Source: Lachnospiraceae bacterium
GTDB lineage: Bacteria; Bacillota; Clostridia; Lachnospirales; Lachnospiraceae
NCBI GenBank assembly: GCA_028693165.1
Contig: JAQUVX010000009.1
Span: 1 to 64,000, forward strand
DNA length: 64,000 nucleotides
Direction of reading: 5' to 3'
The notes under the pieces were generated by a model. That model had not been told where the DNA came from, ran no database searches, and worked only from the letters and a program-made list of their open reading frames with translations. Below, piece by piece: positions 10,458 to 35,289 of the stretch; positions within the stretch are counted from its first letter, which is position 1, and each line of letters opens with the position of its first letter. The position numbers and the translations under genes were made by a program.

Positions 10458-11255
10458 ATGGCTAAATTGGATGGAAAAGTAGCATTAATTACAGGTGCAG
10501 CAGCTGGACTGGGTGAGGGCATTGCAACCGCTTACGCAAAATACGGCGCAAAGCTCTGTATGGTTGATCTGTCAAAGGATGTTGAGAAGACGGCAGAGAA
10601 GCTTCGCAAAGAGTACAACGCAGAGATCATCACCTGTGTGGCTAATGTTGCCGACAAGGCACAGATGAAAGCCGCAGCAGAGCAGGCCGCAGAGAAATTC
10701 GGCACCATCAATGTTGCGTGCTGCAATGCAGGCGTGTGCAGACTGGCTCCGTTTGAGGAGATGACCGATGAGACCCGTGACTTCCATATCGACGTAAACA
10801 TCAAGGGCGTTTGGAATACCTGCCAGGCAGTCATTCCTTATATGCTGAAAAATGGCGGCGGCAACATCGTCATCGCTTCTTCCGTAACCGGTGATATCGT
10901 AGCCGATGCAGGTGAGGCGGCTTACGCCATGACAAAGGCCGCGCTGGTTGGTCTGACCAAGTGTCTTGCAGTCGAGTACGCAGACAGAAATATCCGTGTA
11001 AACTGCTCACAGCTGGGCTATGCACGTACCCCGATGGTAGAGAAGATGGCTCTGGAGTCCAATCCGAACGATCCGGAGAGTGCAATCAACGATATCGCAA
11101 AGGGTGTTCCGATGAAGAGACTGGCAAAACCGATCGAGGTTGGCGAACTGTTTGCATTCCTTGGCAGTGATGAATCCAGCTACTTAACCGGTTCACAGGT
11201 TGTTATCGACGGCGGCAGCACACTTCCTGAAACCATGAGTATTGGTACAAACTAG
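10458..11255 (+). CDS. ucpA: Short-chain dehydrogenase/reductase, UcpA-like
   Basis: A 265-residue classical SDR. It has the NAD(P) glycine motif TGAAAGLGEG near residue 12, CNAG in place of the usual NNAG, and the catalytic Ser-Tyr-Lys set in SSVTG and YAMTK. The C-terminal GGSTLPET strongly resembles E. coli UcpA. The substrate-side PG motif has become LG (QLGYARTP), a mild departure. Its placement between two APC permeases suggests oxidation or reduction of an imported amino acid or amine derivative, which is inference. The asp/leu-rich interior has no membrane segment, so it is cytosolic. Confidence 0.8.
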   Translation: MAKLDGKVALITGAAAGLGEGIATAYAKYGAKLCMVDLSKDVEKTAEKLRKEYNAEIITCVANVADKAQMKAAAEQAAEKFGTINVACCNAGVCRLAPFEEMTDETRDFHIDVNIKGVWNTCQAVIPYMLKNGGGNIVIASSVTGDIVADAGEAAYAMTKAALVGLTKCLAVEYADRNIRVNCSQLGYARTPMVEKMALESNPNDPESAINDIAKGVPMKRLAKPIEVGELFAFLGSDESSYLTGSQVVIDGGSTLPETMSIGTN

Positions 11256-11269
11256 AAGAGAAAACTGCG

Positions 11270-11306
11270 AAAGGGGGTTGTAATCCATACAGCTCCCTTT
11301 TTGTTT
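11270..11306 (+). terminator. Possible weak terminator or attenuator between ucpA and the second permease
   Basis: AAAGGGGG (11270-11277) can pair with CTCCCTTT (11293-11300), with one mismatch and a 15-base loop, followed by a short T/G run. It would reduce rather than abolish read-through into the second permease. Confidence 0.35.
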
Positions 11307-11325
11307 GCAAATGGAGGTGGCTTTT

Positions 11326-12732
11326 ATGCCGGGGACGGGTGAAACAAAATTGAACCGCAGCCTGAAGCTGATCTATGTCTACGCGATTGCGACAGGCGCA
11401 ATTTTTACCTTTATTGGTTATTGGGATTCGATCTTTTATGAATATTGTGGTTCCGGAACTTTTTTGGCATTTCTTTTAATGACCCTGTTAATTCTTCCTA
11501 TTGCCTTTGTCTACTGTGAGATGGCACCGCTGTTTCCAGAGGCCGGAGGCGAACTGATCTATAATACCGTAGGCATCAACAAGCACTTTGGGTTTCTTTC
11601 CGCATGGCTGATTATGGCCGCATGGATTGCGGTGCCACCGGCTGCGGTCATGGCGATCGTACAGTGGATTTTTCACATTACGGGTCTGACGCAGAATTTT
11701 AACATCATCGAAATTGTGGCGGCAATTCTGCTGGTGGGATACTTTATCCTGAGTCTGCAGAATGTGGAGATTGCAGGAAAGCTTCAGCTTGTGATGCTGG
11801 GACTGGCGATCGTGGGCTGCATCGTGGCCTCCATTGCCTTTATGTGTTCGGGCAGCTGGAGCTTTTCCAACTTCTCCAACTTCTTTTATTCCCAGGCGAA
11901 GGCTTCCCTGGGGATCAACCCGTGGATCATCGGCCTGGGCTTTTTGATCACGCCGTTCTTCGGGTTTGAGACCGTGCCGCAGATGATCGAGGAAGGCAAC
12001 TTCCCGATCACGGACAGCAACAAGGCTATCTGGGGTTCGGTGGTAACATGCGGCATCATTTATGGCTTCTTCTTTCTCGGAATCGGCGGTATGCCCGTCC
12101 AGGCTCTGATAGAAGAGGGCGGCGCGGCGACCGGCGGTTTTCTGGCGATCACGATGATGGAGCAGCTGGGCGGCGGCTGGCGGATCGGCGCGGTGCTCTT
12201 TGGCATTGCCGCGATTCTGTGCGCCATCGGAACCTGTCTGCTGGGCTTCTGGCTGTCTACAGTGCGCCTGCTTTACGCCATGGGACGCAGCAATTTCCTG
12301 CCGGAATCCTTTGCGAAGCTGAACAAACATAAACAGCCGATTCTGCCGAATGTACTGCTGCTGATCGTATCGATCGTATTTCTGGTTTTGCAGAATTCCG
12401 GAACCTTTATGAATGACTTCTTCAACCTGATGGCCTTTGGCTGTGCCTGTGCCTATGCGATTACCATGGTAGCGGCGATTCGGATTCACAGTGGTCATCC
12501 GGACTGGAAGTCTGGCTACAGGCTCAAAGGCGGCAGCTTCACACGCTGGCTGTCCCTGATCATTGCGGTGGTCATTGCATTTTTCTGTACCCTGGGGCAG
12601 GGCATCGGCTCCTGGATCTCCTTTGCCGTATACATGGGTATCGGCATCCTCCTCTGGCTTTGGATGGTTCTGGTAAAATGGAAGAAAACCAGGGTGGTGA
12701 TCAACACCCCGGACGGTCCGACCGAATATTAA
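11326..12732 (+). CDS. APC-superfamily amino acid/amine permease (second copy)
   Basis: A 468-residue permease with about 12 helices, closely related to the one at 9010: same YxYAIATGAIFTFIGYWDS start, FFGFETVPQMIEEGNFP centre and AFFCTLGQGIGSWISF end. Upstream TTG (11305) and ATG (11311) codons are in frame. ATG 11326 is preferred because GGAGGT lies 7 bases before it and the N-terminus then aligns with the first copy. Two permeases around one SDR suggests related substrates or a substrate/product antiport pair. The two proteins diverge most in the loop after helix 8, where this copy has QALIEEGGAATGG. Confidence 0.88.
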   Translation: MPGTGETKLNRSLKLIYVYAIATGAIFTFIGYWDSIFYEYCGSGTFLAFLLMTLLILPIAFVYCEMAPLFPEAGGELIYNTVGINKHFGFLSAWLIMAAWIAVPPAAVMAIVQWIFHITGLTQNFNIIEIVAAILLVGYFILSLQNVEIAGKLQLVMLGLAIVGCIVASIAFMCSGSWSFSNFSNFFYSQAKASLGINPWIIGLGFLITPFFGFETVPQMIEEGNFPITDSNKAIWGSVVTCGIIYGFFFLGIGGMPVQALIEEGGAATGGFLAITMMEQLGGGWRIGAVLFGIAAILCAIGTCLLGFWLSTVRLLYAMGRSNFLPESFAKLNKHKQPILPNVLLLIVSIVFLVLQNSGTFMNDFFNLMAFGCACAYAITMVAAIRIHSGHPDWKSGYRLKGGSFTRWLSLIIAVVIAFFCTLGQGIGSWISFAVYMGIGILLWLWMVLVKWKKTRVVINTPDGPTEY

Positions 12733-31393: not shown

Positions 31394-31468
31394 GGAAAGG
31401 AAGAAGGACTGCTGGATTCCTACCAGAAGCTTCTGGACATGCGGGAAGAATTCAGGAAACTGATTTAG
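31394..31468 (+). pseudogene. 3' remnant of an HPt gene
   Basis: The 24 codons ending in a TAG stop read GKEEGLLDSYQKLLDMREEFRKLI, almost the same as the C-terminus of the HPt protein at 20859. Everything upstream, including the active-site histidine, is missing. It cannot be functional. It is the probable scar of the original HPt gene or of a duplicated one. Confidence 0.8.
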
Positions 31469-31525
31469 ACCTTGCTGTAAAAGCACGGGAAAAGCTGCCG
31501 AAGCATAGACTTTAATTAAGTATAT
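31394..31525 (+). repeat. 132-bp direct repeat, copy B (HPt 3' end and flank)
   Basis: This copy matches 21126-21257 without gaps, about 93% identical by eye. Most coding differences are at third codon positions. It ends just before the sigK ribosome site. Confidence 0.85.
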
Positions 31526-31542
31526 GCGTTAGGTGGCTTTTT

Positions 31543-32175
31543 TTGAAGACATTTCCCAAGCCTTTGACACCCGGAGAGGAGAGAATCTGTCTGGAGCGCT
31601 GCAAAGAGGGCGACCTGGATGCCCGCAATACTCTGATCGAACGAAATATGAGGTTGGTGGCTCACGTGGCGAAGAAGTATCAGAATACGGATTACGAGAT
31701 GGAGGATCTGCTGTCCGTGGGAACGATAGGGCTGATCAAGGCAGTCAACACCTTTCATATGGATCGTGGCTCCAGGCTTGCCACCTATGCCGCAAAATGT
31801 ATTGAAAATGAAATTCTCATGCTTCTGCGGGCCAGCCGCAAATTTTCCCGTGAGGTATCACTGTTTGAGCCGATCGGTGTGGATAAGGACGGGGAATCGG
31901 TCAGCCTTGTGGATGTGATCGAGATGGAGAACCGGGAGGTCCTTGAGGATCTGATCCTGAGTCAGGATATCCGCGAACTGTATGAAATCTGCGAGGCGTG
32001 TCTGAAGGATCAGGAAAAGACGGTGATCGGCATGCGCTACGGCCTGTATGGCAAGCAGCCGAAAACCCAGCGGGAGATCGCGGAGCTGCTGGGCATTTCC
32101 CGTTCCTATGTATCCCGAATCGAAAAGCGGGCGCTGGGGAAGCTGCGGGTGGAGTTTGAGAAGAAAGAGAAATAG
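31543..32175 (+). CDS. sigK: Sporulation sigma factor SigK
   Basis: A 210-residue sigma factor of the late mother cell. It has sigma region 2 (ARNTLIERNMRLVAHVAKKYQN...DLLSVGTIGLIKAVNTF) and region 4 ([29 protein letters not shown]), closest to SigK. The B. subtilis protein has an extra N-terminal pro-sequence before the FPxPL motif; here the protein starts at that motif, so there is no pro-peptide. The start is a TTG at 31543, 6 bases after AGGTGG, with no ATG in reach. The last residues (VEFEKKEK) differ from a second copy of the 3' end at 34098 (RQRLEENR), implying an insertion at the gene end. Confidence 0.85.
   Translation: MKTFPKPLTPGEERICLERCKEGDLDARNTLIERNMRLVAHVAKKYQNTDYEMEDLLSVGTIGLIKAVNTFHMDRGSRLATYAAKCIENEILMLLRASRKFSREVSLFEPIGVDKDGESVSLVDVIEMENREVLEDLILSQDIRELYEICEACLKDQEKTVIGMRYGLYGKQPKTQREIAELLGISRSYVSRIEKRALGKLRVEFEKKEK
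32110..32148 (+). repeat. attL-like copy of the sigK 3' segment
   Basis: A 39-base segment beginning GTATCCCGAATCGAAAAGCG is repeated at 34098-34136 with only two mismatches; the first 23 bases are identical. It lies inside sigK region 4. With 34098-34136 it brackets about 1.9 kb carrying one AT-rich gene. Confidence 0.75.
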
Positions 32176-32197
32176 AATTTAATGATAACAGAAGGTT

Positions 32198-32231
32198 ACG
32201 CTGCCTTGATGGGGAAATGTCAAGACAGCGT
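32198..32231. other. Hairpin after sigK
   Basis: ACGCTGCCTTGA pairs with TCAAGACAGCGT (one mismatch) across a 10-base loop. No T-tract follows, so it is not a standard terminator; it may mark the end of the inserted segment. The rest of 32176-32459 is AT-rich and gene-free. Confidence 0.4.
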
Positions 32232-32391
32232 ATTGCTTTGCACCGTGAGCACCAAATTATAATGAGGCGGAATATAAAATCTCCGTCCTTTTGCGAGCTG
32301 GAGTAATTCACTATAATTGTGTCACAGTAAAGCATCTATTTCAGGTATTTCAGAAAATTTCTTGAAGTAGATGTTCTATTAGGTTGATCAG

Positions 32392-32400
32392 TGTTATAAT
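32392..32400 (+). promoter_or_regulatory. Extended -10 promoter of the MBL-fold gene
   Basis: TGTTATAAT is a perfect extended -10 element. No good -35 box is present. It is 60 bases upstream of the start codon. Confidence 0.45.
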
Positions 32401-32459
32401 AGATCCGGACGGCACTTATTGAAAAAATGTAGATTAGTTTATATACAAGGAAAAAACAA

Positions 32460-33923
32460 ATGATAAACAATACATGGAAATATCAACGCGGAACAGGTTT
32501 GTTAAAAGAACATCATAATAAATGTACTAATTTTTTTAATAAAATAGAAGATGGCGAAGAGGTATATATACATTTAGATAATCCGGTAACGGAAGACGAC
32601 CTGAATGCTGAAAATGAAACTTATATAAGAGCAACATTACTGTCTGATGAAATGATTTCGTATGATGCAGAAATGCTAGGCCATGCATATAATGAAAATA
32701 ATGAGCTTTTAAACAAATATCGCCCATATTTTGTCAGTTTTATAATACCTTATTCTCAAACTTCCGTAACAGATTTAATGTTGATAGAAAATACATGGTA
32801 TAAGGGGATTTTTCAAACAGCACAATCAGAATTGGAAAATAATGAGACTGTAATAGCGCTGGAAGGAATTTTGGAAACGAGTGCGAGTCCAATTAATCAT
32901 CTAGAAGGAACGATGTTAGTATTTAAAAATAAAAGTCTAAAACAGAGTGAACTGGAAAAAATAAATGAAATAGATAAAACATATAAAATATCGACATTTA
33001 CAACAAGTAATGTAATTATTGAAAACTATTTAAATAGTGCATGGAATAACGATTATCCAAAATTGATTGATATATATAATGTTGGACATGGAAATGCAGA
33101 TTATATTAGAGGAAGCAACAATCACAGAATCTTATATGATGTTGGATATAGTTATATAAAGTGTCCGAAAGCATATGGTGTTTTCCCCTACATGAGAGCA
33201 GCAATGGCTATACGTGGAATGAAGCCTGATTGCGTGGTTTTATCGCACTGGGATACGGATCACATTATTGGATGTGCTTATGCAGAACAGTCATTGTTTA
33301 GAAAAAAATGGATTGCACCAAGTTTTATATCCAGCAATGATAAAAAATATTGCCCGAGTATAAATGCAAAGCGATTGGCAATGTATTTAAATCTTCTGGG
33401 CAACTTATGTTTAGTTGACCGGAGTCAAGGAAAGACTGAAATAGCAACTATATCGTGCATAAATTATGCGGAAATAATCCTTTGGCTAGGCGGTGGTAAG
33501 GATTCAAAAATAACAAGGCATAATTGCGAAGGACTTATTTTGGAAATAGTGGGGAGCCGTAGCTGCCAGAGGGATAAGAATTGCTTGGGACATCAAAGTC
33601 ATATTTTGTTGTCTGGAGATGTTCCGTATCAGTGTATACCAAATACTGTTTTTTCAAAAAAGATTGATTTTCTACATGTACCACATCATTGCTCAGGCAT
33701 GAATTTGTCCGCTCTTACAACTATGCTTCCGGGAGGGCGTGCCGCTATCATCTCTACTGATCGGAAAAAAGATGGCACAAAAAATCTGGATAATACTCAT
33801 TTAAATGAGTTAGGGAGAAAATATTCTATGGTTGTTTGTACAATCGATCATAAGCCTGTGGATGACGATGCAAATTTAAGTGTACAAATTGATTGTTTGA
33901 CTAATTGCATAAAATTCAGATAA
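32460..33923 (+). CDS. MBL-fold metallohydrolase, ComEC-like domain, AT-rich
   Basis: A 487-residue protein. The first about 195 residues match nothing I recognise. The rest is a metallo-beta-lactamase fold of the ComEC C-terminal type: DIYNVGHGNADYI, LYDVGYSY, SHWDTDHIIG (HxxxDH, lacking the second His of the classical HxHxDH), ILLSGDVP and VPHHCSG. There is no signal peptide. AAGGA precedes the ATG. Base composition is far more AT-rich than the neighbours, and the gene is alone between two copies of the sigK 3' end, so horizontal acquisition is likely. Similar orphan MBL proteins occur in phage-defence islands, but no partner is visible here. Confidence 0.75.
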   Translation: MINNTWKYQRGTGLLKEHHNKCTNFFNKIEDGEEVYIHLDNPVTEDDLNAENETYIRATLLSDEMISYDAEMLGHAYNENNELLNKYRPYFVSFIIPYSQTSVTDLMLIENTWYKGIFQTAQSELENNETVIALEGILETSASPINHLEGTMLVFKNKSLKQSELEKINEIDKTYKISTFTTSNVIIENYLNSAWNNDYPKLIDIYNVGHGNADYIRGSNNHRILYDVGYSYIKCPKAYGVFPYMRAAMAIRGMKPDCVVLSHWDTDHIIGCAYAEQSLFRKKWIAPSFISSNDKKYCPSINAKRLAMYLNLLGNLCLVDRSQGKTEIATISCINYAEIILWLGGGKDSKITRHNCEGLILEIVGSRSCQRDKNCLGHQSHILLSGDVPYQCIPNTVFSKKIDFLHVPHHCSGMNLSALTTMLPGGRAAIISTDRKKDGTKNLDNTHLNELGRKYSMVVCTIDHKPVDDDANLSVQIDCLTNCIKFR

Positions 33924-34097
33924 AATACAGCTTCTGCTGGAGTGTGAGCATAAAGAAAATAAATAAGATGGTGTGGTAAAAAATATGGTCTTCATTTAGT
34001 GGACAACGAATTGGACAGAGAGGCAACTAACAAGAGATTCTTGTTAGTTCCAGATGAAGGAACCATTATTTTTATCCCCACCGTGGCAGGAGCATAC

Positions 34098-34160
34098 GTA
34101 TCCCGAATCGAAAAGCGGGCACTCGGGAAGCTGCGGCAGAGGCTCGAAGAAAATAGATAA
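34098..34160 (+). pseudogene. Detached 3' end of sigK (attR-like copy)
   Basis: Twenty codons and a stop read [20 protein letters not shown], the end of sigma region 4, repeating the segment at 32110 in sigK. A strong terminator follows 31 bases later. This is probably the original sigK 3' end, displaced by insertion of the MBL segment. It lies in a different frame from the open frame that runs into galE. Confidence 0.75.
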
Positions 34161-34191
34161 ACCTGGAGTGAAAAATGCATTGTTTTTCCGG

Positions 34192-34230
34192 GCTTTCCCA
34201 TATATAATATATGGGAAAGCTATTTTTTTT
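34192..34230 (+). terminator. Strong terminator, probably the ancestral sigK terminator
   Basis: GCTTTCCCATATA (34192-34204) and TATATGGGAAAGC (34208-34220) form a perfect 13-bp stem with a 3-base loop, followed by TATTTTTTTT. Confidence 0.85.
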
Positions 34231-34266
34231 GACAGAAAAATTTCAGTTGAAATAAGGAGGATGGTT

Positions 34267-35289
34267 ATGTCTACAATTTTGGTAACGGGCGGTGCGGGTT
34301 ATATCGGAAGTCATACCTGTATTTCGCTTTTGGAATCGGGTCATGATGTGGTCGTAGTGGACAATCTGTGCAATTCCTGCCGTGAATCCGTGAAACGTGT
34401 GGAGGAGATTACAGGAAAGCATGTGAGCTTTTATGAGGTGGATCTTCTGGACGAGCCGGCGCTGGATCAGGTGTTTGCAAATGAGAAGATCGATGCGGTT
34501 ATTCATTTTGCAGGTCTGAAGGCCGTTGGAGAATCTGTTTACAAACCATTGGAATATTATCATAACAACATTACCGGTACACTGATTCTCTGTGATGTGA
34601 TGCGCAGACATGGCTGCAAGAACATCGTGTTCAGTTCCTCCGCAACGGTCTATGGCAACCCGGCCTTCGTGCCGATCACCGAGGAGTGTCCGATGGGCGA
34701 GATCACCAACCCATACGGCAGAACCAAGGGGATGCTGGAGCAGATTCTGACAGACCTGCACACGGCAGATCCAGAGTGGAAGGTGATGCTGCTTCGTTAT
34801 TTCAATCCGATCGGTGCGCACAAATCCGGACGGATCGGCGAGAATCCGAAGGGAATCCCGAACAACCTGTTCCCGTACATCACGCAGGTGGCGATCGGCA
34901 AGCTGGTATGTCTCGGCGTGTTTGGCAACGACTACGATACTCCGGACGGAACCTGTGTCCGTGACTACATCCATGTGGTAGATTTGGCAGACGGTCATGT
35001 GAAAGCGCTGGACAAGATGGACAAGGAAGGCGGCGGTGTCTGGATCTACAATCTGGGAACGGGTGCCGGCTACAGTGTCCTGGATGTCATCCGTGCATTT
35101 GAGGAGGCAAACAACTTAAAGATCAACTATGTCTTCAAAGAGCGCCGCGCAGGGGATGTGCCTGCCTGCTACGCAGATTCCAGCAAGGCCGCGCGCGAAC
35201 TTGGCTGGACCGCGAAAAACGGAATACGCGAGATGTGCGAGGATTCCTGGAGATGGCAGAAGAACAATCCGAACGGGTATGAGGAATAA
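34267..35289 (+). CDS. galE: UDP-glucose 4-epimerase
   Basis: A 340-residue extended SDR that interconverts UDP-glucose and UDP-galactose. It has the NAD motif GGAGYIGSH at the N-terminus, the catalytic Ser in SSSATVYG, the YxxxK pair in YGRTKGMLE, and the [24 protein letters not shown] and NLGTG blocks of GalE. ATG 34267 is 6 bases after AAGGAGG; the frame extends to 34054, but that part includes the sigK remnant and a terminator and is not coding. It is monocistronic, with a terminator downstream. Confidence 0.95.

Follow-up and report, generated by a model that had tools for sequence, protein, structure and literature searches.

Skin elements are the textbook example of a mobile element lodged inside a developmental gene, and the skin-type group to which we compare our locus comprises skinBs, skinCd, Bcbva island IV, Bacillus cereus AH820, the prophages of Clostridium tetani and C. 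perfringens, and the Alicyclobacillus phage MMB025. According to the corresponding reports, skinCd, which has one large serine recombinase (LSR), occupies a site and an orientation other than those of skinBs (PMC5025042), sigK insertions of the B. cereus group lie at nucleotides 195 and 423 with one recombinase adjoining the 5′ part of the gene (PMC10745906), and prophages reside within sigK in C. tetani and Alicyclobacillus (PMC5553647, PMC13141910). A further report describes streptococcal integrative and conjugative elements (ICEs) with serine-integrase triplets that disrupt mutT, traG, or hsdM and are associated with repeats of 2–8 bp (PMC4701971, Ambroset et al. 2016). Here, we analyzed 64,000 nucleotides of a Lachnospiraceae bacterium (GCA_028693165.1, contig JAQUVX010000009.1, positions 1 to 64,000 of the forward strand; this whole stretch is hereafter the window, and all features below lie on its forward strand), in which the 3′ end of the sporulation sigma factor gene sigK is found a second time behind a single gene of the metallo-beta-lactamase (MBL) fold. 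An element targeting this very spot of sigK has probably come and gone, leaving behind a passenger gene and a new sigK ending. On balance, we favor the reading that the window holds the footprint of an LSR element that integrates in sigK at codon 189, and that this footprint was left by excision through an inner junction.

The starting observation is the repetition of positions 32107–32148 at 34095–34136, at a spacing of 1,988 bp and over 42 nucleotides with three mismatches (93% identity), which bears out the duplication reported by a first-pass annotation of the same DNA over 39 bases with two mismatches. A 23-base core of this repeat occurs in only two places of the window when up to 3 mismatches are allowed, against 0.01 expected. 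The gene itself is a real sigK: its unbroken 210-residue product reaches 292 bits with NCBIfam PRK05803 (cut-off 252), and falls slightly under the cut-off of TIGR02846 (287.5 vs. 298.65). Its body, codons 1–188 (31543..32106, ending in GISRS), stops at the point where sigK is cut in the LSR-bearing loci described below, and is completed by the proximal copy of the 3′ end (tail 1, 32107..32175, ending in VEFEKKEK), so that no element splits sigK in the window. The distal copy (tail 2, 34095..34160, ending in RQRLEENR) corresponds to only the last ~21 sigK codons and is preceded by unrelated sequence; a search of the bacterium's own genome with sigK DNA returned, besides sigK and this fragment, a single region of another sigma gene. 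With ~21 codons and nothing sigma-like upstream, a remnant of a second sigma-factor gene, which the annotation had named as what would overturn its interpretation, is excluded. As also announced there, the DNA between the copies is AT-rich (34.2% G+C vs. 50.6% for the whole window) and holds a single gene, the MBL-fold gene of 487 codons.

What ties this arrangement to a mobile element is the short sequence that abuts tail 2. We ran a junction pattern, an element arm followed directly by YVSRIEK, against one genome per species of 84,980 species, and obtained 32 matches in 30 stretches, from which 31 junctions in 25 assemblies other than that of the window were kept; a match in a gammaproteobacterium (L080; G, C, and L numbers are our labels for genomes, contigs, and loci), located in a different protein, was discounted as accidental. 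Fifteen of these 25 assemblies are titled Lachnospiraceae, the others including Clostridiaceae, Hungatella, Roseburia, and Anaerotignum, and five are siblings of our genome (G005, G012, G016, G021, and G023). Together with the window and with G013, whose junction has TGTGT in place of TATGT and was detected by a weight matrix, the junction is thus present in 7 of the 24 genomes of the genus. This matrix was built from 25 distinct arms, that of the window excluded, and gives the window's arm (34069..34094), a diverged element arm (P arm) that would form a leftover attR together with tail 2, a score of 16.3, the best of 127,948 window positions (next best: 4.4); the same arm also ranks first on the 17 bp that lie outside the search pattern. 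For comparison, the sibling loci offer 774,058 positions, partly from overlapping stretches, and two non-junction places there reach at least 13.7. Given that the match falls on the single base predicted beforehand, chance is a very unlikely explanation for it, and the uniqueness of the 23-base core together with the arm score excludes a chance repeat. An origin in which the 3′ end of sigK was simply duplicated in tandem around an unrelated gene insertion, with an accidental arm, could draw on the divergence of the arm and on the two tails being mutually nearest, but the arm sits at the exact predicted base as the best-scoring position of the window, and both the architecture and the codon boundary are repeated in ten other linked loci, so that accident, in either form, is largely refuted and very improbable. 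An attachment-site arm is thus found at the expected base beside the target gene. The earlier proposal of an integrative element that had the 3′ end of sigK as its target is upheld.

The nature of this element can be read from the loci in which it is still present. In G023, three LSRs (524, 584, and 573 residues, each with PF00239, PF07508, and PF13408) lie directly 5′ of the junction; an LSR triplet lies between sigK and the junction in G448 and G445; and in the complete genome of Anaerotignum sp. MB30-C6 (NZ_CP133078.1), the triplet is found beside attL, on the other strand, within an element of ~22 kb with metabolic cargo. A fifth locus, G455, has two LSRs beside its junction, its contig beginning within the second, and its sigK side is not visible. 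The external recombinases of G023, G448, G455, and Anaerotignum group together in a single clade (support 1.0), to the exclusion of seven other LSRs. In the four LSR-bearing loci with a visible sigK side (G023, G448, G445, and Anaerotignum), sigK is invariably cut at SRS|Y and continues from SRSY into conserved foreign DNA (TAC..C..CTGTTATWATAGGG), and attL holds no sigK tail. The attL arm is conserved and its reverse complement resembles the attR arm (matrix score of 9.0 for G023), as the inverted symmetry of a serine-integrase attP would predict; at the crossover, attL and attR share only the letters TA (TAC in Anaerotignum); the equivalent TA of the window, at 32107..32108, would be the crossover dinucleotide of a restored attB-like site. 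Joining the flanks in silico yields an in-frame SigK of 207–209 residues for all four full elements, such that excision would rebuild the gene. Overall, the junction is well supported as an LSR attachment site. The cut at SRS|Y presumably deprives region 4.2 of most of its recognition helix, on which basis the cut sigK genes are expected to lack activity for as long as the element stays in place. As side observations, a ParA-like start and a RepA_N fragment (PF06970) lie directly after the cut sigK of G023 (C46, L028, ~11200–11700), which suggests that the core of this element is ICE- or plasmid-like, and the attP and attR patterns each returned 0 stretches from viral contigs.

Comparing loci with and without recombinases reveals two states of sigK. 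The gene and the junction could be linked in 15 loci, across two contigs in the case of G023. All four that carry the LSR triplet have a cut sigK, and all 11 that lack LSRs, the window included, have a sigK that is whole at codon 189 and followed by cargo and a leftover junction, the first junction lying 1,105 to 7,436 bp from sigK; in one of these 11, G021, sigK is split elsewhere, near codon 90. No LSR match lies between sigK and the last junction of the 11 loci, in agreement with the earlier remark that no integrase is present in the window. By hand arithmetic, a split this clean has odds of 1 in 1,365 if the loci are independent, and is indicative only since they are related. Another twelve loci remained unclassed, their two sides being on different contigs or one side missing (G005, G013, G016, G444, G452, G455, G456, G460, G461, G462, G464, and G465); in seven of them, sigK is whole on another contig. 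Many tyrosine-integrase islands replace the tail of their target gene, and the first-pass annotation had supposed, in the same vein, that the element restored the frame with its own sigK copy. A self-restoring cassette of this kind, devoid of LSRs, with an att site holding the sigK 3′ end and inserted into an unbroken sigK by a trans-acting recombinase, would account for the structure of the window and of the ten further LSR-less loci. Against it, sigK is interrupted and attL is free of any sigK tail in four of the four LSR-bearing loci, and the circular form would carry an attR-like site, a kind of site that serine integrases normally leave unjoined to attB; we therefore deem such a cassette unlikely, and the related idea that attP itself includes a sigK tail brought by the element was rejected, attL being without a tail in the four loci. 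The restored tail is better explained as the sigK tail of an older host held inside a composite element, and recombination is the work of an LSR triplet, with TA as the crossover at SRS|Y, rather than of a self-restoring element of the tyrosine-integrase sort. The earlier interpretation is thus right in direction and wrong in detail, and only partly supported.

Under the inner-junction model that we favor, a full element with its LSR triplet, inverted-repeat attP, and TA crossover splits sigK and leaves the last ~20 codons beyond the element, and its excision would rebuild the gene by analogy with skin. Some elements contain a second, inner junction: in these composites, an element arm is joined to an older sigK tail, and the cargo comes next, before another arm joined to the tail of the host sigK. 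If attL recombined with the outermost attR, the host sigK would be restored, with the older tail and the cargo leaving in the circle. If it recombined with an inner attR instead, the LSR core would be removed and the sigK body would acquire the older, borrowed tail; what would remain is the body with this older tail, the cargo, and an arm followed by the host tail. In the window, the outcome would be a sigK with the VEFEKKEK tail, the MBL gene, and an arm followed by RQRLEENR. Serine integrases normally recombine attL with attR, and the inner-junction route obeys this rule. We infer both this route and the occurrence of excision during sporulation.

G445 is the intermediate predicted by the inner-junction model. 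On one contig, it shows sigK cut at ~60.1 kb, the LSR triplet at 48.9–43.9 kb, and junctions at 37.4, 4.3, and 0.7 kb, each with a different sigK tail, and joining its flanks gives an in-frame SigK with each of the three junctions and tails. More than one junction per contig is also the case in G449 and QZDW01000016 (two each). Moreover, one and the same tail-plus-cargo DNA can follow the body of sigK in one species and an element arm in a different one: the sigK tail and Uma2 gene of G021 match an inner junction of G445 (91% over 703 bp), the sigK of G021 matches the junction of G465 (96% over 297 bp), and the sigK tail of G454 matches the junction tail and methylase system of G021 (79% over 2,532 bp), with shorter cases in G008/G452 and G453/G448. 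Where both copies stand behind sigK, as in G012/G451, similarity shows a clear step at the crossover, from 63/85 just before it to 94/100 just after.

Several observations weigh against the reading of the window as an inner-junction footprint. Its two tail copies are each other's nearest match (49/66 bases), which makes the tail comparison alone weak evidence and means that the donor of the proximal tail must be a close relative or that the copies arose by local duplication. The arm of the window is diverged, its 16.3 comparing with leave-one-out scores of 3.4 to 48.4 for the 25 members, and one unrelated place among the 774,058 sibling positions scores 16.9. As the cassette sequences were cut at TA, the left boundary of homology is partly built in for most pairs, and the test is free only where both copies follow sigK; in one such comparison, G443/G465, the step is only weak (69/99 to 75/100). 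One TGA lies in frame within the external LSR of G445. The attL pattern returned 0 of 397 family genomes, a sample without a confirmed positive control. No LSR of this type is present at E 1e-60 in the window's own genome (G000), an absence that is also expected by chance and that the model allows, inner-junction excision leaving no recombinase. Last, no locus was observed both before and after excision.

The surroundings of sigK in sibling genomes indicate which of the two tails is the newcomer. The galE gene, which follows tail 2 in the window (34267..35289), is present in 8 of the 17 sibling stretches compared and stands directly after sigK in four of them (G002, G015, G017, and G020, with a gap of ~140–270 bp), so that MBL-free siblings, with which a comparison had been suggested as a check, do exist, with sigK adjoining galE. 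It lies 2.4–3.4 kb beyond sigK in G018 and G011, on the opposite side of sigK in G003, and apart from the sigK stretch in G005. The distal ending RQRLEENR resembles the RQGLEN, RQGLER, and RQKLE of G018, G017, and G020, respectively, and VEFEKKEK occurs in none of 18 sibling sigK tails; the proximal tail hence appears as the newcomer, presumably borrowed, and the distal one as host-like, as first proposed, and the insertion-free relatives with a VEFEKKEK tail that would have spoken against this were not encountered among the relatives examined. A layout like that of the window, with a second sigK end starting from the same codon, is found in two siblings, G021 (copies 1,105 bp apart, with a Uma2-type gene between them) and G012 (1,517 bp apart). 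This variable content of the sigK–galE interval among neighboring genomes, together with the 39/42 bases shared by the tail copies, which suffice for local recombination, could also suggest that homologous recombination through the sigK or galE flanks brought in an old footprint from a relative, with no recombinase at work in this lineage. Such exchange moves existing arm–tail junctions but cannot create them, and junctions recur in 25 other assemblies, so that we regard it as quite unlikely to be the origin of the locus.

Other interruptions of sigK were seen in the genus. In 5 of its 24 genomes, the gene is split near codon 90 (query position ~268), as by skin-type elements (G005:C8:85258, G009:C20:10079-14347, G011:C179/C118, G013:C29, and G021:C79/C43; L019–L021 and L029–L033), the two halves being only ~3.7 kb apart in G009. 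A skin element at a position of the known type is excluded in the window, where sigK is unbroken at this codon ~90. In G016 (C8:45128-45699; L034, L131), the sigK match ends around codon 160 at a contig end and other DNA follows, possibly a third insertion site in sigK.

With regard to the cargo, the MBL-fold gene (32460..33923, 33.8% G+C) encodes a ComEC/Rec2-like protein of 487 residues with an SHWDTDH motif, which we take to be of the HxDxDH type. Its family matches are weak: LmuA (7.2e-7 over ~60 residues) and RTasMBL (1.5e-4) in PADLOC, ComEC_Rec2 (1e-6, 26.9 bits vs. 190) and 6A-MBL (4e-5, 23 bits vs. 220) in NCBIfam, and Lactamase_B in Pfam (17.2 vs. a cut-off of 22.7); none of these three collections gave a defense-family match above its curated cut-off. 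Relatives at 28–33% identity occur in three other genomes of the 397 family genomes, and an AlphaFold model from the single sequence has a mean predicted local distance difference test score of 32.6. The junction arm nearest in kind to that of the window, in L105 (AGGAGCG), has upstream of it an MBL protein (LmuA, 2e-33) and a 1,117-residue protein with weak defense-candidate matches. Among 10 proteins from five cassettes, eight match a PADLOC family at a value of 0.01 or better and the remaining two give no match, a count made without a control set of flanking genes. Judging from such sequence resemblances, it is plausible that the MBL cargo may serve in anti-phage defense, which makes it a candidate defense gene. 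Beside these, two 562-residue genes of AAA-ATPase_like/PD-(D/E)XK type flank one junction (L081:176-3700), similar genes being found in many cassettes, and a CRISPR-cas-like run of genes, recognized by eye, follows the distal sigK end of G016:C63 (L071/L107, 3616–12960).

As for the signals around the cargo, the distal copy is followed, as announced, by an intrinsic terminator (34191..34221, with 14-bp arms at 34192–34205 and 34207–34220), putatively the original terminator of sigK. The proximal copy had been said to have none: a hairpin does lie 3′ of tail 1 (32197..32232; −20.2 kcal/mol for 75 nucleotides, z −2.1), such that the claim holds only in part; this hairpin has no T run and was not called by the terminator scan. 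The promoter that had been attributed to the MBL gene finds no such backing, with 9 promoter-like sites in 31400–34400 for 9.2 expected.

Taken together, these loci point to a second system at sigK, at a position unrelated to that of skin, which is recurrent, works with three recombinases, and leaves passenger genes and tails in its wake, and which would explain single foreign genes found behind sigK without an integrase. It also provides the LSRs of the codon-189 site (hereafter site B) with a natural att-site pair, and makes the between-species swapping of the end of a sporulation sigma factor testable. In the literature, of which our coverage was partial, we found no report of the codon-189 site, of an LSR triplet in sigK, or of exchanged sigK tails. 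More tentatively, and with a degree of belief that stays below even, one may propose that, in Lachnospiraceae and one relative, LSR-triplet elements that cut sigK within region 4.2 serve as delivery vehicles, whose inner excisions would repair sigK with a foreign C-terminus and deposit cargo, often of defense type, so that the tail would be horizontally exchanged and arrays would record past visits. If this were true, and if excision were linked to sporulation as in skin, the choice of junction could give rise to sister cells with different SigK tails and cargo.

In comparison with known systems, the full site-B elements resemble the skin-type group in splitting sigK, in carrying serine recombinases, and in the rebuilding of the gene when their ends are joined. 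They differ from it in their site, codon 189 as opposed to nucleotides 195 and 423 given for the B. cereus group in PMC10745906, in having three LSRs instead of one, and in having several outer junctions that differ in their sigK tails; the window differs further in that no element remains and sigK is whole, a serine recombinase and three adjacent LSR genes being features of the four full elements and not of the window. With the streptococcal triplet ICEs (PMC4701971), they share a trio of adjacent LSRs whose members cluster according to position (external, middle, and internal), a gene-disrupting insertion, and direct repeats of 2–8 bp, whereas their target is sigK, and the RepA_N fragment and ParA-like start of G023 were noticed without a systematic search for conjugation genes. 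Staphylococcal cassette chromosome (SCC) arrays at rlmH likewise combine LSRs with a conserved target gene that is entered at its 3′ end, and consist of tandem units, including some that lack a recombinase. Tandem units at one target, some without a recombinase, are indeed what is found here in G445, G449, and QZDW01000016 and in the 11 LSR-less loci; yet the target is sigK and not rlmH, the recombinases are presumably different from Ccr, the full elements break their target gene, and the units carry a sigK tail of ~66 bp.

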